Assembly (NCBI GenBank): GCA_937129395.1
Contig: CAKZNE010000335.1
Span: 1-35,458, forward strand
Length of the DNA stretch: 35,458 nucleotides
DNA from: an uncultured Cryomorphaceae bacterium
GTDB taxonomy: Bacteria; Bacteroidota; Bacteroidia; Flavobacteriales; Schleiferiaceae
Direction: 5' to 3'
The notes under the pieces were generated by a model. That model saw nothing but the letters and a program-made list of their open reading frames with translations. It searched no databases and was not told the origin of the DNA. A program made the position numbers and the translations under genes. Of this stretch, positions 5,619 through 34,879 are shown in pieces; within the stretch, counting starts at the first letter, position 1; every line of letters starts with the position of its first letter.

Positions 5619-6323
5619 TCAATCGATGGAATCTGAATCTTCAACTTTCAATATTTTTCTACAATATTCCTCTATTTCCTCTAGTTTTGGAGGTAATTTA
5701 TCCATTATTTCTGAGGATATTTTTCGTAATTCTTTCGAAAACGCAGCGTGATCTTCAGGACTAAGCTGTTTGCTATCAATTCTAAATTTTCTATATCCGA
5801 AGTCCCAATGTTTACTACTATAATCATTAAAAATGGCCTCAATGTATTCACAAAGAGGCTTTTGTAATAACAGTTTATTTAGATGGTAATAATTACCAAA
5901 TTCTTCAATAGCCTTTGAGGCAGCATTTAGCCGATCTTCACTCTCTTTTTTTGCATCTGAATGGATTAATTGTATAGGAGCGGTCCAATGAATCATGACT
6001 GCGTGCAGCTTTTGTAGGTTCCCATAAATTTCCACAAGTGCTTCGGCTCTTTTCTGGTGGAGGTAAGCGTACTCAATTTGAAAAGCCATGTTGTCTTTGG
6101 CAAGAGCTGACTTTAAAGGCTCAATTTTTTCTGCAAGTTTTTCTTTAAAATCTTTCTTAATTATTTCTTGAGCAGATGTCAATTGATCTATAGTGGCTAA
6201 CTCTGCCATCTGCTTACCCATGTACTTCAGAAAAGATTTGTAAAAAAAGAGATATGAAGCCAAAAGAAAAAAAGCCAGCTGGATCAGCCATGAAATTATC
6301 TTTTCCCAGGTTATTGAATCCAT
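5619..6323 (-). CDS. N-terminally membrane-anchored coiled-coil protein, STING-module partner candidate
   Basis: IISWLIQLAFFLLASYLFFYKSFL near the N-terminus. Starts 4 nt after the stop of the upstream TIR-STING-like gene. Confidence 0.65.
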   Translation of the reverse strand: MDSITWEKIISWLIQLAFFLLASYLFFYKSFLKYMGKQMAELATIDQLTSAQEIIKKDFKEKLAEKIEPLKSALAKDNMAFQIEYAYLHQKRAEALVEIYGNLQKLHAVMIHWTAPIQLIHSDAKKESEDRLNAASKAIEEFGNYYHLNKLLLQKPLCEYIEAIFNDYSSKHWDFGYRKFRIDSKQLSPEDHAAFSKELRKISSEIMDKLPPKLEEIEEYCRKILKVEDSDSID

Positions 6324-6327
6324 AATA

Positions 6328-7278
6328 TTAGAAATTATACTCGATAAATTTTATTACTCTTTGACTGAAGGGATCTGCGTATATCTTGCTTTTAAGAACC
6401 GAAATGAAGTTGTTAATTTCTCGCACCTGGATCAATTGAAATTCCATGGAATTTGGAGAATAATCGTGAGGAAGGTACATTTTGATTGCATCGTGAATTG
6501 TAGTTAAAGTAGTTGGCATGTCACAAATTATAAGCCCATTCTTTTTAGTGGGATCTTGTTTGACCTGGGTCCAAATAGGTCGACCTCCTTCTGGTTTAAA
6601 ACTATGTTCTCTAAACTTGTTGTTCGCAAAATAATCCGAAGCACTATTTTGCATAACATGTTGAAGTTTAGTTGGAATTATGACTTGAATTTCAAAATGA
6701 TCATACCGTTTTTTGTCAATTTCTATGTTGGGCTTTGAACGCAAATAATCACATAATCTTTCTAGAAAATTAGTGTAAAATCCGGCTGCAGCACTGGTTG
6801 AAGGCAGTAATCCAAGTTTTGGTGATTTAAATTTCTCCTTAATATGTTCGCTGATAATTTGAACCTGCGATTGCAGAGATTTAGAGATCTGAATATCATT
6901 TTCCCCACCAAATATTGAAATATGAATTCCATCCAAATCGGAAGGTTTTTTTGCTCCTTTTTGAAGCAACAGTATTGCTCTAAATTGACCTAACTGTCCC
7001 ATGAATAAGCCATATTCAAAAACAACATTGTCTCGAGGAGACATAATATCATTCCCTCTTGAGTAAGTCTTATCGTCTTTGGAGCCAATCAATATTCCAA
7101 AATCGAACATGCTTCCCGCTTTCAATAAGGAGCTAAGATAAGAGGCCCCTAATCCGAAGACGGTGCCATCATTCCAAACTATACATTCTATTGCTGAATT
7201 TTTTTCAAGTTGGTGTTTTACTTTTTGAGCAATAGGTAATCCTTCCATTGAAGAACCAATGAAAATTCTAGGTTTCAT
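6328..7278 (-). CDS. TIR-STING-like protein (PF10137-type TIR + prokaryotic STING-like domain)
   Basis: N-term MKPRIFIGSSMEGLPIAQKVKHQLE...SPRDNVVFEYGLFMGQLGQFRAILL (CAP12/Pycsar-type TIR). C-term LLPSTSAAAGFYTNFLERLCDYL...EIQVIIPTKL...GLIICDMPTTLTTIHDAIKMYLP...FQLIQVREINNFISVLKSKI (STING ligand-domain order). Confidence 0.72.
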   Translation of the reverse strand: MKPRIFIGSSMEGLPIAQKVKHQLEKNSAIECIVWNDGTVFGLGASYLSSLLKAGSMFDFGILIGSKDDKTYSRGNDIMSPRDNVVFEYGLFMGQLGQFRAILLLQKGAKKPSDLDGIHISIFGGENDIQISKSLQSQVQIISEHIKEKFKSPKLGLLPSTSAAAGFYTNFLERLCDYLRSKPNIEIDKKRYDHFEIQVIIPTKLQHVMQNSASDYFANNKFREHSFKPEGGRPIWTQVKQDPTKKNGLIICDMPTTLTTIHDAIKMYLPHDYSPNSMEFQLIQVREINNFISVLKSKIYADPFSQRVIKFIEYNF

Positions 7279-7705: not shown

Positions 7706-7738
7706 AAAAAAAAACGCCAACAACAAGGCCAGCGTTTT
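7706..7738. terminator. Hairpin terminator
   Basis: AAAACGC...GCGTTTT with a flanking A tract, at the 3' end of the minus-strand cluster. Confidence 0.6.
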
Positions 7739-9332: not shown

Positions 9333-10124
9333 TTACGTGATGGGGTAGTTGGCTACTAGGACTTCTGTCTTTCGTGCCAACCGAGGCTTTCCAAATTCTG
9401 CCTTTACGGCGCTTTTGGTTTTGTTATAGGACTGGAGATACCAACCTTGTTTTTTAATATATTTATCCAAAATAGGATTGGGAAATCCGCTTAATAGGAA
9501 TTTCCCTTTAAGGGCAACAAGTGTTTCCAATAACTCTTTGTACTGATCAATAGAATAGCCTTTGTAATGTCCCATATCGGTATGGATATAGGGTGGATCA
9601 ATGTAATGGAAGGTATCAGGGGTATCATATTGAAGAATGACTTTGACGGCATTACCGGTTTCAATCTGTGCAGACTCTAAACGCCTAGGAACAGACTGAT
9701 CAAATGCCATTTTTTTATTCAAGAAAGATTTAGCCCGTTTTCCGTATTTATCTAGTCCCCAAGACCCAATTCTAGAACCGAAGCCCATATTGGTAGCGAC
9801 ATAGAAAGCCCATGCTTGCTGAAGTGGGGAAAATAAGTGGGGCATACGGTATATACTCCATGCTACAGAATAGGTAGCACGAGAGAACAGGGTTGTCTCC
9901 ACTTTTAATTGTAGGGAGTTGAAGCTTGTTTTAGCGATTTCAAAGAAGTTCATCACCATATGATTCACATCATTGATGATTTCAGATTCTGAAGGTTTTT
10001 TAGCAAAGAATACAGCACCACCTCCAAAGAATGATTCAGTATAGATTCGGTGAGTGGGTATATTGGGAAGAATATGACGAAGCATATTCTGCTTACCACC
10101 ATAGTAAGCGATAGGGGTTTTCAT
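9333..10124 (-). CDS. D12-class (Dam-like) N6-adenine DNA methyltransferase
   Basis: Start MKTPIAYYGGKQNMLRHILPNIP; YTESFFGGGAVFFAK; catalytic FHYIDPPYIHTDMGHYKGYS (DPPY). Confidence 0.88.
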   Translation of the reverse strand: MKTPIAYYGGKQNMLRHILPNIPTHRIYTESFFGGGAVFFAKKPSESEIINDVNHMVMNFFEIAKTSFNSLQLKVETTLFSRATYSVAWSIYRMPHLFSPLQQAWAFYVATNMGFGSRIGSWGLDKYGKRAKSFLNKKMAFDQSVPRRLESAQIETGNAVKVILQYDTPDTFHYIDPPYIHTDMGHYKGYSIDQYKELLETLVALKGKFLLSGFPNPILDKYIKKQGWYLQSYNKTKSAVKAEFGKPRLARKTEVLVANYPIT

Positions 10125-10170
10125 AAATAGAGTAGAGAGAAAGAAAAATGAATAAAAGCGGGTAATAGAA

Positions 10171-11346
10171 TTAGGGAGGAAAAGTCTGAGCTGAAAAAGC
10201 ACGAGAAGGTTTTCCGTTTATCATGAGTCTCAAATAAACCTCAAAGTTTGCGAGGGAGGTAAAGTCAGCAATTTCATATTTAGGAATTCCAAGAGGGATA
10301 AATTCTTTTACCAAAAGGGAAGCATCGGAAGAGGAGCAACGAAAGGCTACCACGGTACCAACGTTACCTAAAAGGGAAGCCCTAACCTCAGAATCCAGTT
10401 GATATAAGAATTGGTTGGCTAAAATTAGCCCAACCTTGAACTTACGAAGCTCAGAGAGCATTTCAGAAACTAGTTCGGTGTTGGTTAAGGTTTGAAATTC
10501 ATCAATATATAGGAAGAAAGGACGCCTTTTAGAAAAAGGGGTATCAATACGAGAAAAGGCAGCTGAAGCTAGGGAAGTGAGAAGTAAGGAGCCCAAAATA
10601 TGAGCTACATCTGAACCCACCTGTCCTTTAGCCAGATTAATCAAGAGCACATTCCCCTTATCCATTGTGGAACGAAGGGATAACTGACGAGTATTTTCAA
10701 CTAGAACCTTTCGAACTATAGGATGAGCTAAAAAAGCGCCTGTTTTGTTTAAGATGGGAAGAAGATCAGCGGATTTGTACTTGGGGAATTCTACTGTCCA
10801 AAATCGTTTCACATCATTGCTGGTAACATACTTTAAGCAAGACATGCGAAAGTTAGTATCTTGAAGAAGTAGAGGGATATCTACGAAATTGGCGGAAGGT
10901 TGACAGAGCAGGGTGAGTAAAGAAAATCGAAGTATATGCTCCATTTTCATTCCCCAGGCACTCTTCCAGTGTCGTTTAAGGATTTCCAAAATGTTAGAGG
11001 CTACAAGAGAATGTTGAGAGGGTTTTACTTTTCGAAAAGGATTGTATCCCCACTCTAAAGTTGGATCGGTAACATCTAAATAGATTACTCTTTCTTTATC
11101 AAAATCAGAAAGACTATCATAAACTTCACGACAAGCATCCCCATGAACATCCAAAAAGGCAAAGCCCCGTGAGGCTTTAAGATCTTGCTCCATAAGGCAC
11201 TTAAGTAGTGATGTTTTTCCAGCACCTGTCTTACCTAGGGCGTAAAAGTGAAAAAGTCGATCGGCTTGTTTGACACCAAAATCTTCACCTGAATTTCTAA
11301 AGTTAGTTTTCCCAAAATAGCTGACCTCATAAAGAGAAGGAATCAT
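10171..11346 (-). CDS. TraD/VirD4-like DNA-transfer ATPase
   Basis: Walker A ALGKTGAGKTSLL, Walker B FFLYIDEFQTL, and ILANQFLYQLDSEVRASLLGNVGT pattern typical of TraD/TraG-type ATPases. Confidence 0.75.
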   Translation of the reverse strand: MIPSLYEVSYFGKTNFRNSGEDFGVKQADRLFHFYALGKTGAGKTSLLKCLMEQDLKASRGFAFLDVHGDACREVYDSLSDFDKERVIYLDVTDPTLEWGYNPFRKVKPSQHSLVASNILEILKRHWKSAWGMKMEHILRFSLLTLLCQPSANFVDIPLLLQDTNFRMSCLKYVTSNDVKRFWTVEFPKYKSADLLPILNKTGAFLAHPIVRKVLVENTRQLSLRSTMDKGNVLLINLAKGQVGSDVAHILGSLLLTSLASAAFSRIDTPFSKRRPFFLYIDEFQTLTNTELVSEMLSELRKFKVGLILANQFLYQLDSEVRASLLGNVGTVVAFRCSSSDASLLVKEFIPLGIPKYEIADFTSLANFEVYLRLMINGKPSRAFSAQTFPP

Positions 11347-11599: not shown

Positions 11600-12580
11600 T
11601 CATGACTTATTGTTGCGATTAGCTTCCATTGTTTCTCTTTCAATATCGAAGTTATAGACTTTGTCAAACTCTTCAGCTGGTAATCGCAAACTTAAAATAT
11701 CCGAAACTTTAACGGTTTCCAAGAGGTTATTAATTTGAATATGTAAACACCTTTTGGTCTTATATGCAATATCTTTTATTGCATCAATGTTTGTATCTGG
11801 AGAACTCATAACAAATCTCAAAAGGTTATTTTCTTTTTGTAGTTCATTCAGATGAGAGCGAATACCCTCTGTAAAAGCAGGCATCATTAAATATCCAGAA
11901 TTTCCATATTGGTTTTGTGAAGCATTTCTGAAATTCAAACTATCAAGCGCCACAATGGATGGTCGTTGAAAGTCTTTCTTTTTATCTTTTTCCACTTGTT
12001 CTGATGAATAAACTCCATAAGGTCTTAATGCTATACTCAAGCCATGTTTATATTGATCATAAAAAAACTTATGCTTTTTGTAGAATTCAATTAGCTCAAT
12101 AAGAATCTGTCTTAGTCTATCAATAGAGTCATAAATGGTTTTTAGAGTATCCGTTTCCGTAGTTGCCTCAGTCTTTGAAAAGTAAGGAAAGTGAAACATT
12201 TTACAGATGTTCTCATCCTTCATGGAAAAACCTTTGATAAAGGAATCTACCTTTCCCGCATTGTATTTAATGATACTTCTAATAAAGTGGTTTTGATTTT
12301 GTGAAGCTGAGATTAACGCGAATAAGTCTTCAATATATTGCATACTGTGCTGAACTGCTTCAAACAATAAGCCATTTTCAATTTCTTGAGCTATAGTATG
12401 CTCTCCAGCACTTTCATCGGTAGATTTTATTTCCTCAACTATTTCGCGGTAAAAGTCATACTTGTTCTCAAGTCTTTTTTTAATACTTAAGACTTGTATG
12501 TACCTCCATTCTGAATAGTAAGATGAAAAGAATTTATTTATTTGATCACGGTTTATATTTTGTCTTTCTTCCGTTGTCAT
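11600..12580 (-). CDS. Hypothetical helical protein, partner of RES protein
   Basis: 326 aa ORF; its start overlaps the RES gene by 35 nt. Confidence 0.65.
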   Translation of the reverse strand: MTTEERQNINRDQINKFFSSYYSEWRYIQVLSIKKRLENKYDFYREIVEEIKSTDESAGEHTIAQEIENGLLFEAVQHSMQYIEDLFALISASQNQNHFIRSIIKYNAGKVDSFIKGFSMKDENICKMFHFPYFSKTEATTETDTLKTIYDSIDRLRQILIELIEFYKKHKFFYDQYKHGLSIALRPYGVYSSEQVEKDKKKDFQRPSIVALDSLNFRNASQNQYGNSGYLMMPAFTEGIRSHLNELQKENNLLRFVMSSPDTNIDAIKDIAYKTKRCLHIQINNLLETVKVSDILSLRLPAEEFDKVYNFDIERETMEANRNNKS

Positions 12581-13754
12581 TTGTATACTCTGAATATGAG
12601 AGGTTTGAGATTTTTTTTCTTTTTAAATTTGTCAATTTGACTTTCCCTTTACTTAACTCACTATCCCAGAAAAATACTGATGCTTGATAATTCTTATTCT
12701 GTGAAGACGGATATAACATTCCAGATATTTTATTCTTCCTATTCTTATTGAATGGGAATCTTAGAAATTCTGTAACAACCTGAGTTGAAACATACTCTAT
12801 GTGTTCTTTTCCGTCCTTAACGATTGTTTTAGTCATATCTCTTACCAAAGAGTGAATGAATAAAATCAAGTAGTACTTCTTTTTATTCTTAACGCTAAAT
12901 ATGCTTGGGATATTCGGCAGTTTATTAAAGTCGACCACGACTGTGTTTTCAATTGTTTCAAACTCTGCAATTGAGACATATTTCTTCGCTTTATTTTTAC
13001 GACTTACAGTTTCAAGAATTGCTGTGTCAATGTCAAAAGCAGAATAAAACATAGAAATTCCTGAGGGGCTAAATCTATTCGGATAAATTGCATTTTCATT
13101 TGGCGGAGAAGAAATATCTTCAAATCTATTAATTACGGTCTTAAAATCATGTTGTCTACAACGATATAGTTTTGTTCCTTTTGGAATTGCTCTTATAATC
13201 CCCAAAGAGGAGATGAGCTTACCAACTTCTTTGAGGATATGAAAGGCTCGGGTTTGATTTTGATCTCCTGCTGAAAACAGAAATCGAGATTTGTGTTTAA
13301 TCAGATCCTTAAAGTATTTCCACTGATATTCCAAATCATCCTTTACATTATCATAGTATAAGTCAGGTTGAGCCCAAGCAATCATTTCAATGGAATCTAT
13401 AACGTCTTCTACAATTTGAAATGGCTCTGCCATCAGCTCAATTTCGTTGCGAATAATTTCATCTGGGCTATATATTTCACCTAAATAACCTCCTTCTCTT
13501 GAGTTGTAGCTCATAAAATTTGCCGCATCTTCATAGAAATTTGAAATTCCAAACATTAAAAATTCCATCAGATCTTCAAATGAAACCACTTTCAATTTTT
13601 TTTTGCAATAATCACAATGACCATGCTTATAATTCTTTTTGATAAAATTGGTAATACTATTATCTTCAAAGTGTTTGGCACAAATATGTTTATCAGGAAT
13701 ACGGTTTAAGTTCCTCTCCTGTTGTTCCATCCACTTCTGCTTAGCCAGGCCCAT
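12546..13754 (-). CDS. RES-domain protein with HEPN/RES N-terminal-like region
   Basis: IPKGTKLYRCRQHD...NRFSPSGISMFYSAFDIDTAILETV matches the RES pattern. N-terminal CxxC (HCDYCKKKLK) and helical region. Confidence 0.72.
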   Translation of the reverse strand: MGLAKQKWMEQQERNLNRIPDKHICAKHFEDNSITNFIKKNYKHGHCDYCKKKLKVVSFEDLMEFLMFGISNFYEDAANFMSYNSREGGYLGEIYSPDEIIRNEIELMAEPFQIVEDVIDSIEMIAWAQPDLYYDNVKDDLEYQWKYFKDLIKHKSRFLFSAGDQNQTRAFHILKEVGKLISSLGIIRAIPKGTKLYRCRQHDFKTVINRFEDISSPPNENAIYPNRFSPSGISMFYSAFDIDTAILETVSRKNKAKKYVSIAEFETIENTVVVDFNKLPNIPSIFSVKNKKKYYLILFIHSLVRDMTKTIVKDGKEHIEYVSTQVVTEFLRFPFNKNRKNKISGMLYPSSQNKNYQASVFFWDSELSKGKVKLTNLKRKKISNLSYSEYTNDNGRKTKYKP

Positions 13755-14336: not shown

Positions 14337-15337
14337 AATGGGTGTCCGCTTCCATAAAGTCCTTATCTTGTAGGAAATAATATTTCTATGGAATTGGCCC
14401 GTTTTTTTCGCAATTATGGAGACGAAGAATCTTGCACTCAGTTATTTAAAGAATTTAGAGATCGGCAAGGAGTAATTTGTAAAGGATGTAAAGGGAAAGA
14501 TCATATTTGGATCCGAACGGTTAGGAAATATGAATGTAAATCCTGTCACTTTCAAACTACTTTACGAAGCGGTACAATATTGCATGCCTCGAAGTTACCT
14601 TACCATTATTGGATTTACGCCATTGTAATGATGACCTATACCAAAAAGAGCATTTCTGCTTTAGAAATGCAACGTCAATTGGGGCATAAACGATATGAGC
14701 CAATTTGGGCGATGATGCATAAAATTCGACGATCCATGGGAGATAGAGATTCCCGGTATCAATTGGAAGAGTTAGTTGAATTGGATGATGGTTTTGTAAA
14801 GAGTTTTAAGGATAAGGATGAAAATGACTCCAATGGGAATAAAGCAGGAAGGGGAACCCAAGAAAACTCTAACATTTTGGTAATGTGCAGGGTTAGTAGT
14901 GGGAAAGATGATAGCAAAAAGAAAAAAGACACCGCCTTTAGGTATGTGAAAATGCGACTAACCCTTAGCCAAAAAGCGGAAGAATTTGAGAAAATAGTCG
15001 AACAGCATATTGACCCTGAAACTTGCCTAATGTCTGATGGTTTTCCATCTTTTAGTAAACTTGACAGTAAGGTAAAAAGCCATCTACAACTAACTGTAAG
15101 CCCCAAGCTTGGTGGTAAAGTTTTACCCTGGGTTCACACAACCATATCGAACCTAAAAAGACAACTGCTGGGTGTCCATTCTGGTGTAAAGCAATCCTAT
15201 TTACAGAATTATCTAGATGAATTCTGCTATAAGACAAATCGAAGGTATTTTGGATTTAAATTGTTTGATAGAGTTATGGTAGCTGCAGTTACTAATCATT
15301 CAAAATATGGAAGCCTTTAGCGAAACGGATACCCATT
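14337..15337 (+). mobile_element. IS1595-family insertion sequence, 1001 bp
   Basis: Left end AATGGGTGTCCGCTTCCATAAAG, right end (revcomp) AATGGGTATCCGTTTCGCTAAAG. 8-bp direct repeat AAAGTTTA at 14329-14336 and 15338-15345. Confidence 0.9.
14388..15320 (+). CDS. IS1595-family (ISXO2-like) transposase
   Basis: N-terminal Zn finger CKGCKGKDHIWIRTVRKYECKSCHFQTTLRSGTI, then LEELVELDDGFVKSF...; flanked by TIR/TSD. Confidence 0.9.
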   Translation: MELARFFRNYGDEESCTQLFKEFRDRQGVICKGCKGKDHIWIRTVRKYECKSCHFQTTLRSGTILHASKLPYHYWIYAIVMMTYTKKSISALEMQRQLGHKRYEPIWAMMHKIRRSMGDRDSRYQLEELVELDDGFVKSFKDKDENDSNGNKAGRGTQENSNILVMCRVSSGKDDSKKKKDTAFRYVKMRLTLSQKAEEFEKIVEQHIDPETCLMSDGFPSFSKLDSKVKSHLQLTVSPKLGGKVLPWVHTTISNLKRQLLGVHSGVKQSYLQNYLDEFCYKTNRRYFGFKLFDRVMVAAVTNHSKYGSL

Positions 15338-15674: not shown

Positions 15675-16658
15675 ATGCACCTTAATAACGAATCAATAAC
15701 GCTACAAGAATCAATAGATATTTATTTAGACTGGAAGAAGACCCACACGGCAGATGCTTACAAAGCTTACCGAATACGACTGGAACAATTTGTGAGTTTT
15801 ATTGAAACTCAAAAGTTTCAACTAGCCGACATTACTGGAGATGATATAACAGCCTTTCATAATAAGATGTTGGAGAATTTCTCATCAGCAACGGTTGCTT
15901 ATTCTGCCAGAATCCTTCGGAATTATTTTCTTTTTTGGCAGGGAAGAGGAAAGACAAAGTTAAACCCCAAAGAAATTATCCCCATTCGATTTATCAATGC
16001 GGATAAGGATGTTGTGGAGGAGGAAGATTTTGAAGAAATGACGGATTTATTGGATGAAAATTACGTGGATGACTTACAAAAGAAACTTGTTCTTCATCTA
16101 CTCTGGGACACAGGAATGCGAATTAGTGAATTACTAGACCTAAAACTCTCAGATATTGGGGAAAGGGGAGAGAATGGCCTTAGAACAGCAAAGGTGAAAA
16201 CCCGTAAAACGATGCGCTACAATTTGGTGGTTTGGGGAGCTTCAACAGATGATTTACTTATTCGATATTTATCATGGAGAGTTCAAACAGATCATCCCAG
16301 TGATAAATTATTTATAGCCACCCATAAAAAGTATCATAAGGATAAAGCAATAACTCCTCGTACAGTTCAACGCTGGGTGAAGCAATTGGCTAGTGCTGCC
16401 ATGCTTGACAAGAACCTTACCCCTCATAGTTTTAGACATGGTAAGGCGCACTATATGTTGGATAAAGGAGCAAGCGCCGTTGATGTTCAAGCAGTATTAC
16501 GACACCGCAACTTAAACTCAAGTCTAAACTATATGCAGCTTAACCAGAATCAATACCTTAAAACTACTTCTAAGTTTTTGGATCAAACCATGCCTATAGC
16601 GGACACCTTTAAGAGTATCCTTGCCAAAAATGGCAAAAGTGTATACACTCTAGCTTGA
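15675..16658 (+). CDS. XerC/D-type tyrosine recombinase
   Basis: TGMRISELLDL, TPHSFRHGKAHYML, LRHRNLNSSLNYMQ give the R-HxxR-H-Y catalytic set. Confidence 0.88.
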   Translation: MHLNNESITLQESIDIYLDWKKTHTADAYKAYRIRLEQFVSFIETQKFQLADITGDDITAFHNKMLENFSSATVAYSARILRNYFLFWQGRGKTKLNPKEIIPIRFINADKDVVEEEDFEEMTDLLDENYVDDLQKKLVLHLLWDTGMRISELLDLKLSDIGERGENGLRTAKVKTRKTMRYNLVVWGASTDDLLIRYLSWRVQTDHPSDKLFIATHKKYHKDKAITPRTVQRWVKQLASAAMLDKNLTPHSFRHGKAHYMLDKGASAVDVQAVLRHRNLNSSLNYMQLNQNQYLKTTSKFLDQTMPIADTFKSILAKNGKSVYTLA

Positions 16659-18096: not shown

Positions 18097-18102
18097 AAAT
18101 TG

Positions 18103-19959
18103 ATGGCTAAAAGAACCAGAAGTCATATTCTAGAGGACGAATCAAGAAATCAACTTCAGGCTATTATTCCTTCGGAATGGGTTGTAAGGGATAAACCTAA
18201 GGATTATGGAATTGATTGTGAAATCGAAATTTTCGATAGTAAAGGAAATCCAACAGGGGCTATCTTTTGGGTACAACTAAAAGCTACGGACTCAAAAAAA
18301 ACAGGTTTAGGTTTGAGTATAAAAAAAGAAAAGCTTAAACAGTTTAACTCATATCCTGTACCTGTTTTGTTTTTAAGATATTCTAGCCCTTTAGAATCAT
18401 TTTTTTATGAATGGAGCAATAAGTATTATTTCCTTGGGGTTAATTCTTCCTCGAAATCTATTAGCTTAAAATTTAATAAAGAATGGGACGGAACTACTCC
18501 GACTGATATTCAATCGTATCTAAAAAAAGTTAATCTGATTAAAAGGGGGGATTTTGAATTACCCTTAAGATGCTCAATAGTAAATTATACTAGTTCTGTT
18601 TCCATTGCTTATGCTATTAAATCAAGCTTCGAAAATTATAATGATTGTATCAGGTTTGACAATGAGGGTTACCTTTTTGAAATGACAATCTATGATAATA
18701 AGATGCTAATCACATTGATGAATGAATTCGCTGCATTTTTCTATATCAGTGAGGCTTCATTCAATGCTGATACACTATCTAAATCTATTGGTTGCGGTAT
18801 CTTAGTAATCTTAGCTCAAATTAAAAAATACGATCTATTAAATATTCTCTTTGATAGATTAGATTTAAAGAAATACTTAAGTAAAAATGTTGAAATCCTA
18901 AAATTCCTAATACCACATTTATTCAACGGGGAAAATGAAAACATGAATTTCATTCACCAGTGCATGGATGAAATTGATGATCCAGCTCTTGAGGTTCTTA
19001 CTAACATAACTTTACAAACCAATAGAAACAAAGCTTCAAAAAAAACTAGAGACAATATAATTTCTTTTTACCAGAAACTACTGGACAGTCCTAAAAGGAA
19101 CAGAACTGCGAAATCTACTTACCTGTATAATATTGGCAATATTTATACTTCGCGAGGTGACTACTTAAAAGCATTAAGTTTTTACAACAAAGCAAGAAAA
19201 TATAACCCTAAATATTTAGAATATGATTACTTCTTAGCGGAGTTGGCTGGAGTGCTTTTTGAGAGTGAGAAATATGACCTATCAAAAAAACTTTATAAAA
19301 AATCTCTTGAAATAAATGACTCTGAATATTTGAGATATGCTTTGTATGGTGACGCTTTGATGTTCACAGGTGAGTATTCAGAAGCGGTGAAGAATTTTAA
19401 TATATACTTGATAAATTCTGATGAAGCAAGTTCAGAGTATCAATTGAAATTTACTGCTTTAACCACTTTAATATCCACTGGGTATCCTAAAAGTCAAAAA
19501 AGAAATACTTTAGAATCTTCTAAATTGATTGGTGAGAGAGAAAATACATCACTAGAAAACTTAAAGGAAGCTGTCGGAAGAGATCTATTATGCAAATATG
19601 CCTGGTATGAACTAGGACATAGATATTTAGAACAAGATAAACTTAAGGACGCCTTTATATCTTTTTTGATGTCATCAGTTTTGTATAGATATGTTAATGC
19701 TCCTTGGATAAATTGCACAACATTATCACTTCAAATTAAAGAAACTGATATTTTATACTACCATGTAATTAACTGTTCTTATAGATTTTGTGGAGATGGT
19801 TATATTAGTGAATTAATGGACTATATTCAGAGTCTTAACCTTGATTTTGAAGAACAAATCCTCGAAGCAATAGAAAAGGCAATTCAGCCCATAAATCAAC
19901 CTAAAAAAGAGTTCAGACTAATTGATAATATTGGTGAGGTGATTACAGTTTTCATTTAA
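18103..19959 (+). CDS. DUF4365-like (PD-(D/E)XK-type) protein with TPR C-terminus
   Basis: KDYGIDCEIEIFD...GAIFWVQLKATD (D..E.QxK nuclease-like motif), then TPR-like YLYNIGNIYTSRGDYLKALSFYNKARKYNPKYLEY. Confidence 0.75.
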   Translation: MAKRTRSHILEDESRNQLQAIIPSEWVVRDKPKDYGIDCEIEIFDSKGNPTGAIFWVQLKATDSKKTGLGLSIKKEKLKQFNSYPVPVLFLRYSSPLESFFYEWSNKYYFLGVNSSSKSISLKFNKEWDGTTPTDIQSYLKKVNLIKRGDFELPLRCSIVNYTSSVSIAYAIKSSFENYNDCIRFDNEGYLFEMTIYDNKMLITLMNEFAAFFYISEASFNADTLSKSIGCGILVILAQIKKYDLLNILFDRLDLKKYLSKNVEILKFLIPHLFNGENENMNFIHQCMDEIDDPALEVLTNITLQTNRNKASKKTRDNIISFYQKLLDSPKRNRTAKSTYLYNIGNIYTSRGDYLKALSFYNKARKYNPKYLEYDYFLAELAGVLFESEKYDLSKKLYKKSLEINDSEYLRYALYGDALMFTGEYSEAVKNFNIYLINSDEASSEYQLKFTALTTLISTGYPKSQKRNTLESSKLIGERENTSLENLKEAVGRDLLCKYAWYELGHRYLEQDKLKDAFISFLMSSVLYRYVNAPWINCTTLSLQIKETDILYYHVINCSYRFCGDGYISELMDYIQSLNLDFEEQILEAIEKAIQPINQPKKEFRLIDNIGEVITVFI

Positions 19960-20116: not shown

Positions 20117-23100
20117 TTAGCCATTAGACCATATTAAACGATAAAGTTCTTTTTTATTTTTAGGTGTTTCATTGAAAAAAGGCTCAATGTTGTTAGCTAG
20201 CAAGCCTCTTTGATGTGAATGTAGTGAAAAGAAAACTGGCTTCGGAGTTGTAGATTGTTGTACCGATGAATAAATATTGACCTTATCTGCGAGTTTGTAT
20301 TGGTGACCATCACTCGATGTCAAGATTCCATTGAAATATATACCTCGGTTTCCCATTGACACCATAGAGTTATTCACTGTTTCAAAAGTTTCTTCTAGCT
20401 TTTTAGTCCTAGGCACATTGGTATCGGTTCTCCAGTCTTGTTGTATTTCCTTGTATTTATCCGAATCCAAAAAGCGGTAACTATCAATTAAAGCAATGTA
20501 ATACGAGTGCTTCTGTGAAAAATTTTTGGAAGCGAACCTCTCTGCATAACTGGCCAAAAGATGATATCGCCTAGTTATTTTGATGTGATAAAGAATACCT
20601 TCAACAGTAAATGAGCTTCGGTGATTAAGATTAAATAGCTTTTTGAGCGGCTCAATGCACCTATGGTAGTAAATCTTATCGTTTAAATGACCTCTCATTT
20701 GACGGTTGAGGACAAACAACTGGTGCCATGAAGGAGCAGCATCTGGATACTGCTTTACATTCTCGTTAAGTAGTTGAGTGGCCTGGTGGTAAAGGTTTTC
20801 CATCTGTTTTAGATCCAATCTATCATTGCTAATATGAGCGATAAAAATACCAGCATGAACACTATTAACCACATGGTTAAAAGTTTGTGGGTTGTTTTTC
20901 TTAAAGTTGAGAATTACCCTCATAGCTTCCTGTAAGTCCTTCTTGTCCAATAGCCAGTTTGCTAGATGCGTCACTACGACAGGAGAATTACAATACTCTT
21001 TGACTTCTTTGATTAATGCGGAAAGTCGTTCCTTATTTCCAACTGACCACATGTATTTCGCAAAGTTTAGCTTATACCACCAGTTGGGGCGGTTGTTCAA
21101 CTGAATTATCTCCTCATAAAGAGCAGTTATCTCACGTTCGTATATGTCAAACCCTTTGTAGTTTGCCATAGCGTTAAGTATATAAGATCTAATCAAATTT
21201 TCACTATCAATATTTCTATAATAGAGATCAACCATTTTGGAAAACTTGAGAGTCTTATCATTTGTAAATTTGAGCAAATAGTTGAAGTATGTTCTCAGTA
21301 CAGGTAGTTGATGATATCCGTCATCTATCAATTTTTCGATTATACCTTCAGCAGCCTCTGGTTTTTTGTGGTCCAGGTAGTGACGGACAAGCCTATTTCG
21401 GGCGTGTAACGAGTCATCCTCAAAATTGTGGATAATGGTTGTTAATTGCTCTACAGCAAGGTTAACTTGCTTTCTTCGGGAAAAGAGGATGTACAATTCC
21501 ATGTACGTCTTGGGGACATCAGAAGTTTGAAGGTTACTTTCCTTTACGAATTCTTGAAATACCTTAATCAGTTTCTCTTCTTTAGGGATAAGCTCTTTAA
21601 GTAATTCATCATGTTTTAAAAACTTGTTTCTATACACATTGCGCAAAAAATGAATATGTCCTTGCATACTGGATGTCATACATCTTTCAATGGTGTTTTT
21701 AAACAAACCCTTTTTGTAGATTCCCTTTGGATCATCCCTTGACAGGAAAAATGGAATAACGTTCGGGTTACGAACTACCAGTAAATTAGAGCCTTCTACA
21801 AGTTGAAGCGGAAGGTCATGCTTGAAAAGATCAACATGTTCTACCGATGAGATTTCAACTCCAATTATCTCTAAGCACAAAGCGACCTGAGGTTGGATAT
21901 CATAGTAGTTAAAATTGGCAACAACTTTATACAAGGGCTCAAGCTTCTTGAATTCCGGATGACCATCGCAGAATGACAACCAGATGTTCCAATCAAATTT
22001 AAACTGATAACGTTTGGGGTCAAGAGCCCTCAGGTTTTGTAGCAGTTCAAATATTCTCTCAGTAGTTGTTCGGTTAGAATTTTTTACAAAATTTGGCCTG
22101 AAGGCATTAATCTGGGCTACATCAACGATGTTAAGTTTAGCAGCCAATCTCTTAAAAAGGGAAGAGTAAAATTTACTTGAGGAAAAGAAGATACAGTGTT
22201 CAATCGTTTGAATATGAGATGGTGCGATCTCTAAAAAAAATTGGTTCCGCTTTATACTGGTCAGCGATATTTTCTCCGTCATAAGCAAGGTAAAACCGTC
22301 TTCGTAATAGGTTTCAGAGAGTTGTACGATGAATGCTTCTAATTCATTGAAATGCTTGGAATAATTATCCAATAACACCAGCGAGTGTTTTCCTTTCGGT
22401 TCAGGAAAATACGGAATATTCTTTGGGTCATTGATTAGAAAAGTGTTGTAACGGTTATAGAACTGTTTTCCTAACTGGAACAGAAAAGTTGTTTTCCCAC
22501 TTCCCCCTCTTTCATTAATAGTGATAATAGAAGATATGCTGCCGAGAGCATTTTCCTTAAATCGATCTCCAAGATCTATCGGTATCTCATTGTCTGTAAT
22601 TAAGCGGTCACTTCTTTGCACATGAAGCTGATTGTCAATAATGTAGGGCAAAAATGAAGAGTGGCTGTTATTATTGATATAGAATTCCAACAGTTGTTCA
22701 TTGGTTTTTTTAGTTTCCGAAATCTCTTTCCAGTAGAATTTATTGAAATGTATTAAACCCGAAAATTTGATTGAATCAGGGCGATCAATTGGTTTGCGTA
22801 TATTCTTTTTCCATTTTTTTAATTTCTCTTCAAAAGGGATCTTTTGAGGCCTTATACCATTTAAAAACTGTAAGAGTTTTTTTGGTTTTCCATAGTCATA
22901 GTTGTGAAGATTACTAAAAACATTAACGTGCAATCCATTTTCTAAAAAATCAACCAACAATTTGTAAAGGAACTCTATTGTCTCCTCACTTGTAACTGTT
23001 CTGGGTTTCTTTTTATTCGCAGAATATTTTGGATGAGTTATAAAGTTTCGATACAATCTCAATTCGTGAAGAAAATCGATGTTCTTAGTATACCTTTTTA

Positions 23101-23431
23101 ACTCATCGATAGTTTCTCTAAATGAATTAATTATAATTAGTTGGTCGACATATTTCCCATGATAGTTGGAGTTTACATATTTTAATATCAAGGTATGAAT
23201 GACGGTTTCAATTATTATGCTTGCTTCCTTAAGCTTTTCGTTTTCAGATTCTGAATCAATCACCACTTTAAGATGGTGAGATAGCTGTTGTAGGTCAAAA
23301 TAATTCATATAACTATTAAAAAAACCTCTCCAATCGAACTGGAGAGGGGAGGGTTCATATTCAGTTGGGAATACTCTGAGTGAAGCAGAGCTATGCAAAT
23401 CATTTGGGTCGCAAGGCTTATAACGTTTCAC
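20117..23431 (-). CDS. HEPN-STAND-TPR-like NTPase, 1104 aa, GTG start
   Basis: LRLYRNFITHP (Rx4H), Walker A NERGGSGKTTFLFQL, Walker B-like HSLVLLDNYSK, long helical-repeat C-terminus. Start codon on the sequence is GTG, preceded in frame by TAG. Confidence 0.68.
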   Translation of the reverse strand: MKRYKPCDPNDLHSSASLRVFPTEYEPSPLQFDWRGFFNSYMNYFDLQQLSHHLKVVIDSESENEKLKEASIIIETVIHTLILKYVNSNYHGKYVDQLIIINSFRETIDELKRYTKNIDFLHELRLYRNFITHPKYSANKKKPRTVTSEETIEFLYKLLVDFLENGLHVNVFSNLHNYDYGKPKKLLQFLNGIRPQKIPFEEKLKKWKKNIRKPIDRPDSIKFSGLIHFNKFYWKEISETKKTNEQLLEFYINNNSHSSFLPYIIDNQLHVQRSDRLITDNEIPIDLGDRFKENALGSISSIITINERGGSGKTTFLFQLGKQFYNRYNTFLINDPKNIPYFPEPKGKHSLVLLDNYSKHFNELEAFIVQLSETYYEDGFTLLMTEKISLTSIKRNQFFLEIAPSHIQTIEHCIFFSSSKFYSSLFKRLAAKLNIVDVAQINAFRPNFVKNSNRTTTERIFELLQNLRALDPKRYQFKFDWNIWLSFCDGHPEFKKLEPLYKVVANFNYYDIQPQVALCLEIIGVEISSVEHVDLFKHDLPLQLVEGSNLLVVRNPNVIPFFLSRDDPKGIYKKGLFKNTIERCMTSSMQGHIHFLRNVYRNKFLKHDELLKELIPKEEKLIKVFQEFVKESNLQTSDVPKTYMELYILFSRRKQVNLAVEQLTTIIHNFEDDSLHARNRLVRHYLDHKKPEAAEGIIEKLIDDGYHQLPVLRTYFNYLLKFTNDKTLKFSKMVDLYYRNIDSENLIRSYILNAMANYKGFDIYEREITALYEEIIQLNNRPNWWYKLNFAKYMWSVGNKERLSALIKEVKEYCNSPVVVTHLANWLLDKKDLQEAMRVILNFKKNNPQTFNHVVNSVHAGIFIAHISNDRLDLKQMENLYHQATQLLNENVKQYPDAAPSWHQLFVLNRQMRGHLNDKIYYHRCIEPLKKLFNLNHRSSFTVEGILYHIKITRRYHLLASYAERFASKNFSQKHSYYIALIDSYRFLDSDKYKEIQQDWRTDTNVPRTKKLEETFETVNNSMVSMGNRGIYFNGILTSSDGHQYKLADKVNIYSSVQQSTTPKPVFFSLHSHQRGLLANNIEPFFNETPKNKKELYRLIWSNG

Positions 23432-30484: not shown

Positions 30485-32014
30485 ATGAAAAAAATATTAC
30501 GACACCGAATCAAACAAATCGGGTCATATCTTTTACTTTTTCTGGTTCGCTTATCTGAAACAATGGAAGACTTGGCGGACCATGCTTTGTCACAGTTAGC
30601 AGGAAAGGATCATAGTTTAAAGGCTTCTTTTGCGAAAGAGTCCACTATTTTATCTCCTAGAAACAAAGGTTTTGTGCTTACAGGAACGAAAGCTATCCGC
30701 CCAGAAATTTCCAAAATGGGGGTGCTTATATCTGGAGGAAGTGGATCAGGAAAATCCACCATTGTCGGCATTCCGAATTGTTTGACCACCGAAAATTCCA
30801 AAATTATCCACGACCCTAGTTCTGAGTTATTCGACCAATCTTCTGGCTATTTAAAAAGTCAGGGCTATACCATCATCCGCATCGACTGGTCGGATGCCAA
30901 TCATAGTCACAATTTCAATCCACTGGAAAGGGTGAGCACTTTATCAGAATATAGCAAACTAGCCACCCAATTAGTAGAAGCTTCGAGCAACAAAAAAGAC
31001 AAGGGGAACTTTTGGAATTCGATGGCCATTCAATTATTGGTTTGCATAATCCGTATTGTTAAACAGCTACCAAATGAATATAAAACTCTAACCGAGGTGG
31101 CACATCTTGTAGACCAATTACAATCCAAAAGTGGACAAAAAGAAGTAGATCAACTTGTAGCTATTATTTCGGAGAAGGACGAAGGATTATTTGAAAAATA
31201 TGCTTCTCTAATTGGAAATTCAGAGAATACCTTGAGTGGAATTTTGGGTTCAGCCACTACAGCAGTGCAAATGTACGCCTTGGATGAGAATATAATCCAT
31301 ATTACTTCCAATGACAGTTTAGGAGACTTTAAGAAGTGGAGAAAAGAAAAGACGGTAGTTTATATCCACAGCAGCACGGTGAACATGAATTACTACGCTC
31401 CGCTGTCCAGTATTTTTTTACAACAGTATTTTGAATCTTTATTTAAATCCTTACCAACAGAAGGTGAACTAGATGTTGACTTCATATTGGATGAAACCCC
31501 TATTCTAAGTATAGAATTGGACGTTTTAGCTGCAAATGTTCGTAAATATCGAGGAAGTCTCCTAGTAATATGTCAAGATGCCGAAAATCAGCTTACCAAT
31601 TCCTTCGGAAGGGAAAGAGCACGAAGCATATTATCCAATCTTAAAACCAAGCTCTATCTCACCACTAATTTAGATAGTGCACAGCGATTATCGAAAGAGT
31701 TAGGAACTTATGAATACATGGATAAGAAAACCAAGCAAATAAGGAGAAGAGAATTAATGACTCCAGAAGAGATCATGAGTTTGCCAGCAGATAAGGGATT
31801 AATAACAATAACAGGGCAACAATCGATTCTCGCCAGACTAAGCCCCCATTTTCTTATTCTGAGACTCAAAAGGATGAGTGAATTACCACCTGCTTTGGAT
31901 GATGATCAAATAACAGACAAGCAGCACAATCCCCCTAGACTTTTAAACCTCACCGAATACCTTGAATCATTTCCTTCCTTAACTCCAAAAACAAAAACCG
32001 ATGGCCAGAATTAG
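30485..32014 (+). CDS. TraG/VirD4-type coupling protein
   Basis: MGVLISGGSGSGKSTIVGIPN, DPSSELFDQS, VDFILDETPIL, LLVICQDAENQL. Confidence 0.85.
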   Translation: MKKILRHRIKQIGSYLLLFLVRLSETMEDLADHALSQLAGKDHSLKASFAKESTILSPRNKGFVLTGTKAIRPEISKMGVLISGGSGSGKSTIVGIPNCLTTENSKIIHDPSSELFDQSSGYLKSQGYTIIRIDWSDANHSHNFNPLERVSTLSEYSKLATQLVEASSNKKDKGNFWNSMAIQLLVCIIRIVKQLPNEYKTLTEVAHLVDQLQSKSGQKEVDQLVAIISEKDEGLFEKYASLIGNSENTLSGILGSATTAVQMYALDENIIHITSNDSLGDFKKWRKEKTVVYIHSSTVNMNYYAPLSSIFLQQYFESLFKSLPTEGELDVDFILDETPILSIELDVLAANVRKYRGSLLVICQDAENQLTNSFGRERARSILSNLKTKLYLTTNLDSAQRLSKELGTYEYMDKKTKQIRRRELMTPEEIMSLPADKGLITITGQQSILARLSPHFLILRLKRMSELPPALDDDQITDKQHNPPRLLNLTEYLESFPSLTPKTKTDGQN

Positions 32015-32416: not shown

Positions 32417-33265
32417 ATGCCCATACTTAAGATACTTTCGAGAAGGCAATTATCCGCTATTGAGCACACTTTGAATTACATCACTAGAGAAGGGAGTGGA
32501 GTGTCAAAACCTCTTTTACACAATTTGCGTAGTTCCATGGAGGATAGGGATGCTTTAGTAAATGAGTTCATCGTCAATGAAGCTTATCGTAAAATTACCA
32601 GTAATCGAATCTACTGTTATCATAGTATTCTTTCGCTATCGGATTTAGACAAGGAGCAGGCGACACCTAAAGTAATGCAAGCCATAGCTCAAAAGTATTT
32701 GGACTTAAGAGGAGATATCTTAGCGGTGGTAGTACCCCATAATGATACCGATAGCCCTCACCGGCATATCCTTGAATCAGCCACATTATATCGAGAAGGA
32801 AAATCTAGTGGACTTCGAAAACAAGAACTCCATAACCTGAAAATGGAGCTAGAGTATTTTATTCAAGAGCGTTTTCCTGAGTTAGAGAACTCTGGAGTAG
32901 AGCACGGAAAAGGAAAACCTTATGTCAAGGAACCTGAAATCCAGCTTCTAAATCGAAAGGGCACCAGTGAGCGGGAACAACTCCAAAAACTTATAAAAAA
33001 TGCCTACTCATCAGCCAACTCCAAACAACAGTTTTTAGACATTCTTCAAGACCATGGTTATTTTCATTATCAGCGAAATAGCGATGGAATACCTACTGGT
33101 CTTCTTTCAGAAAGTGGAAGGAAGTATCGGTTTAAAACTCTTGGACTATCCTTTGAAAAAATCATGGAGCTTGAAAGTAAAATCGAAAAACAACAAGAGG
33201 AGAAACTGTTAAACCAACTAAAAGAAATTCGACAAAATAAAAACCCTAAAAACCGAGAACGATGA
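32417..33265 (+). CDS. Relaxase / mobilization nuclease
   Basis: EHTLNYITREGS (candidate catalytic Tyr), VVPHNDTDSPHRHIL (HxD..HxH metal motif). Confidence 0.8.
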   Translation: MPILKILSRRQLSAIEHTLNYITREGSGVSKPLLHNLRSSMEDRDALVNEFIVNEAYRKITSNRIYCYHSILSLSDLDKEQATPKVMQAIAQKYLDLRGDILAVVVPHNDTDSPHRHILESATLYREGKSSGLRKQELHNLKMELEYFIQERFPELENSGVEHGKGKPYVKEPEIQLLNRKGTSEREQLQKLIKNAYSSANSKQQFLDILQDHGYFHYQRNSDGIPTGLLSESGRKYRFKTLGLSFEKIMELESKIEKQQEEKLLNQLKEIRQNKNPKNRER

Positions 33266-34236: not shown

Positions 34237-34641
34237 ATGGCAAATGTCATCCTATATTCCAGGGTTTCTACAGATGAACAGGCAGACAAGGGCTTTAGCC
34301 TTCGTCATCAAAAAGAAGTGCTTGAACTGTATTGCAATCAAAAAGGATATTCGATTGCCCAACACTTCAGGGAGGACTATTCTGCAAAGAACTTCAACCG
34401 TCCTGAGTTTAATAATCTCTTAGTCTATCTAAAAGGTAATCGAAAACGAATTGACCAAATCCTTTTTACCCGCTGGGATCGATTCTCTAGAAATCAAGAG
34501 GAAGCTTATCGAGTTATTAGACAGTTCCGGAATATGGGAATTGAGGTAAATGCCATTGAACAGCCTCTTGATCTAACACAAGCCGACTCAAAGGTTATGC
34601 TGGCGGTATATTTAGTGATGCCAGAAGTAGAGAATGATAAA
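34237..34641 (+). pseudogene. Large serine recombinase, truncated after catalytic domain
   Basis: ILYSRVSTDEQADKGFSLRHQKEVLELYC...TRWDRFSRN...LAVYLVMPEVENDK, then unrelated sequence and stop. Confidence 0.8.
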
Positions 34642-34879
34642 ATGTATTTAAATGATCTTGGAAAAATCACGCAAAAATTTTCGACCAAATATGGTCGCCT
34701 AGCCTATTTTCGACCAATTCATTAAATGCGATTGGCATTAATGCAATACAAGTAGAGTATCCGTTCAAGCCTTTAAGGGATTTAGAGCGTGAAATTAAAC
34801 CCTGTGTCTTTAGGATTGTTGTACTCGCAGATAGTTTTTCTTCTATAACCCGAAAGAATTTGTTAGGTGCAATCGAAGT

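Follow-up and report, generated by a model that had tools for sequence, protein, structure and literature searches.

What activates a bacterial TIR-STING that has no cyclic dinucleotide synthase at its side? What is understood of bacterial STING is mostly its role as the receptor that is paired with a CD-NTase, and in bacteria TIR-STING ordinarily serves as suicide effector in an alarm circuit against phage. The question is raised by a 35,458-nucleotide contig of an uncultured Cryomorphaceae bacterium, the whole stretch of DNA analysed here and termed the window, that has a gene for a 316-amino acid TIR-STING and in which Pfam, NCBIfam, PADLOC and other searches detected no CD-NTase.

The original prediction gave the 316-amino acid ORF a CAP12-type TIR and a STING-like C-terminus, and both assignments are well founded. 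The Pfam matches to CAP12-PCTIR_TIR (PF10137, 5.6e-29) and prok_STING (PF20300, 5.1e-28) are far over cut-off, the PADLOC TIR effector model PDLC00729 also matches (2e-97), ElSTING (9lmq) aligns end to end (residues 1-313, E 5e-61) and SfSTING (7un8) does likewise. The best PDB matches of the AlphaFold2 model (pLDDT 88.5) are 9lmq, 9lmr and 7un8 with TM scores of 0.83-0.86, and in the comparison with known STINGs that had been proposed as a check, the C-terminal half does model as STING. The NADase residues of SfSTING are F6, S10, W33, F37, R78, N80, E84 and D110 (PMC9402430), and all eight are present in the window protein as F6, S10, W35, F41, R82, N84, E88 and D114. In place of V280 and E290, interface residues of SfSTING, the window protein has S and Q, at positions that are variable across the family. 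As judged from its sequence, the product is a full-length TIR-STING and a predicted NADase.

Table 1. Features of the window, with coordinates counted from its first nucleotide.
Feature	Position	Strand	Description
TIR-STING, 316 aa	6328..7278	-	TIR (residues 4-120) and STING (residues 159-296)
Partner ORF, 234 aa	5619..6323	-	N-terminal hydrophobic helix (residues 9-27) and helical body
Terminator-like hairpin	7711..7738	-	3' of the 7749-8676 gene pair; consensus match only
Lid-motif codons R233-P234-I235 (CGA CCT ATT)	6574..6582	-	RxI, not RxY/F or RxR
T4SS coupling protein	30485-32014		Mobile-element gene
Relaxase	32417-33265		Mobile-element gene
Integrase	15675-16658		Mobile-element gene
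Resolvase	34237-34725		Mobile-element gene
IS1595 transposase	14388-15320		Mobile-element gene

Four nucleotides separate the TIR-STING stop codon from the ATG of the downstream 234-codon ORF on the same strand, and the two are probably co-transcribed. On its consensus match, the hairpin would set the gene pair upstream apart from the TIR-STING transcription unit and, as it would terminate that pair, TIR-STING probably starts a transcription unit of its own. The 35 kb contig is a mobile element (Table 1), possibly misbinned, and it shows no overlap of its ends, so circularity is not supported. Other genes on it merit mention. The product of 12546-13754 (minus strand), with a HEPN/RES N-terminal domain (PF18870, 4.6e-37) and a RES domain (PF08808, 1.1e-11), is probably a RES-type toxin that shares the element with TIR-STING; the 1104-amino acid product of 20117-23431 (minus strand) has a weak match to nSTAND NTPase 5 (3.9e-6, below cut-off) and is possibly of the STAND defence type; the 619-amino acid product of 18100-19959 (plus strand) combines DUF4365 (1.2e-17) with TPR repeats and weakly matches a PADLOC restriction-nuclease model (1.1e-6); and at 9333-11346 (minus strand) a D12-class adenine methyltransferase gene overlaps one for a TraD/VirD4-like ATPase, the two resembling phrog_56 and phrog_5156.

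The lack of a CD-NTase gene close to TIR-STING, noted originally, extends as far as the draft genome allows. Elsewhere in the source assembly, which is 91.5% complete, searches for CdnE, DncV-like and SMODS proteins were empty, as was the proposed search for GGDEF enzymes, while a single DAC gene, for a c-di-AMP synthase, is present on another contig. c-di-AMP is then the only cyclic dinucleotide for which a synthase was detected in the source genome. Of the earlier suggestion that a housekeeping or trans-encoded nucleotide is used, the part concerning housekeeping c-di-GMP has become unlikely as GGDEF enzymes are absent, and the part that c-di-AMP could fill has gained a synthase. The assembly is a draft of 346 contigs, 91.45% complete with 3.87% contamination, and a CD-NTase could be absent from the assembly only.

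An alignment of eight sequences, scanned against a genome collection, yielded 80 loci and a phylum search 16 regions, and 87 full-length TIR-STINGs were surveyed. A CD-NTase-type gene is adjacent in 81 and in six there is none. The CdnE profile matches in 73, nearly always directly upstream of TIR-STING, though at one locus (L112, 7047-8243, minus strand) CdnE is beside TIR-STING on the opposite strand. Eight profile-negative loci (L052, L059, L082, L085, L086, L093, L094 and L114) were considered as orphans and rejected, as each has another nucleotidyltransferase-type ORF adjacent; that of L052 is DncV-like by Pfam and the other seven were assigned by visible sequence similarity, which makes the 73/8/6 division approximate at the margins. 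The six orphans are the window protein, its closest relative L035, and L025, L084, L090 and L110. In plasmids, matches to TIR-STING cover about the TIR half only, and the phage collection gave none.

The SMODS model (PF18144) was rejected as a sole test for CD-NTases since the CdnE paired with TIR-STING does not match it, and a CdnE profile (A2) was searched alongside. Seven genomes were examined, those of the six orphans and G296, which encodes a 435-amino acid TIR-STING (L031). In none of them was CdnE found, the one match (E 0.28, G296) being at chance level, and five of five positive control genomes matched at E<1e-90. SMODS was absent from the same seven, the control genomes of L052 and L094 being positive. 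GGDEF was also absent from all seven and was rejected as ligand source there, keeping in mind that CdnE-bearing control genomes lack it too, a lack that is common to the tested STING carriers rather than particular to orphans. The alternative that homologous loci always carry a CD-NTase that was lost only here is contradicted by L035 and the four further orphans; to judge from these searches, the absence is at the level of the lineage.

On the tree the orphans fall into two groups, the window protein with L035 (support 100) and L025 with L084, L090 and L110 (support 96). The orphan state needs two changes, against a mean of 5.9 when labels are shuffled (0 of 500 as low), and a single-clade origin of all six is not rejected (p-AU 0.153). 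Like the window, members of the second group have an intact TIR active site and genomes without detected CdnE, SMODS or GGDEF; unlike it, they retain the RxF/Y c-di-GMP motif and form a separate clade on the best tree.

Two further sets of loci came to light in the survey. A gene of the cytidine-deaminase fold (PF00383) adjoins a TIR-STING without a detectable CD-NTase in both a Puniceicoccaceae genome (L090, 6941-7702, plus strand, 1.7e-17) and one of Bacteroidota (L031, 4806-5450, plus strand, 2.7e-15), lying once downstream and once upstream, and a TIR-STING-deaminase pairing is possible. Five loci (L026, L027, L029, L033 and L034) encode short STING-domain proteins of about 200-250 amino acids, several with an N-terminal hydrophobic stretch and none with a CdnE match in the region retrieved; the lid arginine is missing from some, for example with DxT in L026 and L027 and YxF in L033.

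L035, the closest relative of the window protein at 52% identity, is from another phylum, on a 4.9 kb contig of a metagenome-assembled Chthoniobacter genome. It stands between a gene for a LutA-like protein (CCG domain) and a LUD-domain gene, and its locus has neither CdnE nor the 234-amino acid partner. In 394 genomes of its phylum no more members were found, other matches covering the TIR half only. By sequence and neighbourhood these two members are what was found of a rare divergent TIR-STING lineage outside CBASS operons.

It is in the lid of the STING pocket that the two stand apart. The window protein retains the guanine-reading arginine R233, aspartate D253 and the stacking phenylalanine F171. 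The residue two positions after the lid arginine stacks on the base, being F232 in ElSTING, Y235 in PcSTING and R153 in FsSTING (PMC12421889, PMC8748872), and Rx(Y/F) is the motif of the c-di-GMP class and RxR that of the 3'3'-cGAMP class of bacterial STING (PMC8748872, PMC10739871). At this position all 81 CD-NTase-linked proteins have Y (38), R (31), H (6) or F (6), and the other four orphans have F or Y, whereas the window protein (RPI) and L035 (REI) have isoleucine and so neither motif. The lid is an indel region in which pairwise HMMER and small 8-sequence alignments place the window arginine differently; the RxI assignment is taken from the large L-INS-i alignment, in which the arginine is invariant. 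With the stacking residue lost, a different signal may be answered, and the RxI lid suggests that the ligand is not c-di-GMP made by CdnE. Yet the residue following I235 is tryptophan, which might substitute for the lost stacking residue, and in a lineage of two members only the isoleucine could be one ancestral change of small effect on specificity. Motif-less STINGs without a known ligand do exist (PMC10739871, PMC8748872). Compared with the Cap12 of CBASS (SfSTING, ElSTING), the window protein is alike in domain order and length, with 39-40% identity to ElSTING, and it has every NADase residue, the STING fold and the pocket R, F and D; it differs in that CdnE is neither adjacent nor detected elsewhere in the genome, in its RxI lid and in its matches to the NCBIfam Cap12 models, which span the full length with scores (280 and 229 bits) under the cut-off of 450. 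What appears to be new is the retention of all NADase residues in a protein that has lost the base-stacking lid residue.

The downstream gene was the other part of the original prediction, in which it encoded a coupled membrane partner that may act as sensor or inhibitor. Its position and the single hydrophobic segment near the N-terminus were as described, and the rest of the protein is predicted to be all-helical, at low confidence, the single-sequence model being poor (pLDDT 47). Against Pfam, NCBIfam, PADLOC, PHROGs and PDB sequences it had no significant match. The TIR-STING and its neighbor could be a sensor-effector or toxin-antitoxin-like unit in which the partner senses infection or restrains the NADase, and the shared strand, the 4-nt spacing and the hairpin that isolates the pair speak for it, as does an AAA_21 ATPase gene adjoining that of a partner relative, L116, to which there is weak similarity (23%) over most of the length. 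The neighborhood survey that had been called for showed instead that the partner is not conserved: none of the 86 other TIR-STING loci has it, that of L035 included, and it is absent from the genomes of 98 relatives. L116 links it to proteins of Haloferax and Bacillus plasmids, the Haloferax one also being matched directly, and there is partial similarity to L117 and L121; these relatives are solitary or have unrelated neighbors, and nothing is shared among their surroundings. A two-gene system is therefore not supported, and such a unit is improbable. The 234-amino acid protein is best seen, from these similarities, as a distant member of a scattered family of membrane coiled-coil proteins that is co-directional here by chance, and at most as a lineage-specific accessory, a membrane tether or damper, rather than a conserved component. 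What stands of the earlier interpretation overall is the identity of the TIR-STING and the absence of a CD-NTase, and what falls is the conserved coupling.

Two other explanations concern the missing synthase. The gene may be an ordinary CBASS effector with usual c-di-GMP activation, its CdnE being elsewhere in the real genome, on a plasmid or in a missing region; the incompleteness and fragmentation of the draft, the retained R233, D253 and F171 and the variable layout seen with the opposite-strand CdnE of L112 are in keeping with this. With a CD-NTase-type gene adjacent in 81 of 87, though, trans arrangements would be rare, L035 from a different phylum also lacks CdnE genome-wide, and the lid residue class common to all CD-NTase-linked proteins is changed, so this is rather unlikely. 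Alternatively a decaying remnant, with its CD-NTase lost and STING pocket drifting, would account for both the missing gene and the changed pocket residue, but the reading frame is unbroken with every active-site residue retained, and neither 52% identity across phyla nor the same isoleucine in L035 is expected from neutral decay; of the explanations considered it is the least probable.

The explanation preferred, by a modest balance of probability, is that the gene encodes an orphan TIR-STING NADase on a mobile element, with an altered pocket, that is triggered by a nucleotide not derived from a local CD-NTase. It draws on the TIR and STING domains with all eight NADase positions, the absence of CdnE, SMODS and GGDEF, the solitary L035 and the lid isoleucine. 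Without ligand the STING dimer would be silent; the nucleotide that it binds would come from outside the locus, whether from the host (c-di-AMP for instance), from a pool altered by infection or from an invader, and its binding would close the lid and lead to filament formation, NAD+ hydrolysis by TIR and abortive infection. Against c-di-AMP in this role, it bound ElSTING without activating it (PMC10739871). A more specific version, of a CD-NTase-independent lineage that acquired a new ligand by rebuilding its lid and became a one-gene sensor-effector, placed or restrained here by the membrane protein, is conceivable though doubtful. In the open-access literature that was searched, no report of orphan or CD-NTase-free bacterial TIR-STINGs was found.

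Standalone choanoflagellate STINGs without cGLRs (PMC12424679) are similar to the window protein in being STING receptors with no partner synthase detectable in the genome, and are proposed to be readers of foreign cyclic dinucleotides; unlike it, they are eukaryotic, have no TIR and are shown to bind c-di-GMP. Among bacterial STINGs, some that are motif-less or linked to DisA (Burroughs and Aravind 2020, as cited in PMC10739871) are described there as missing the standard lid motif, as in the window, where by contrast with the STING-DisA linkage reported in that source the DAC gene is unlinked and on another contig.

That receptor and NADase have been kept while CD-NTases and GGDEF enzymes are undetectable raises the question of what activates such lineages, for which two natural test cases exist, one with the RxI pocket and one, the other orphans, with RxF/Y. 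If a housekeeping, phage-altered or foreign nucleotide is read, STING can be a stand-alone sensor in bacteria, comparable to what is proposed for some choanoflagellates.
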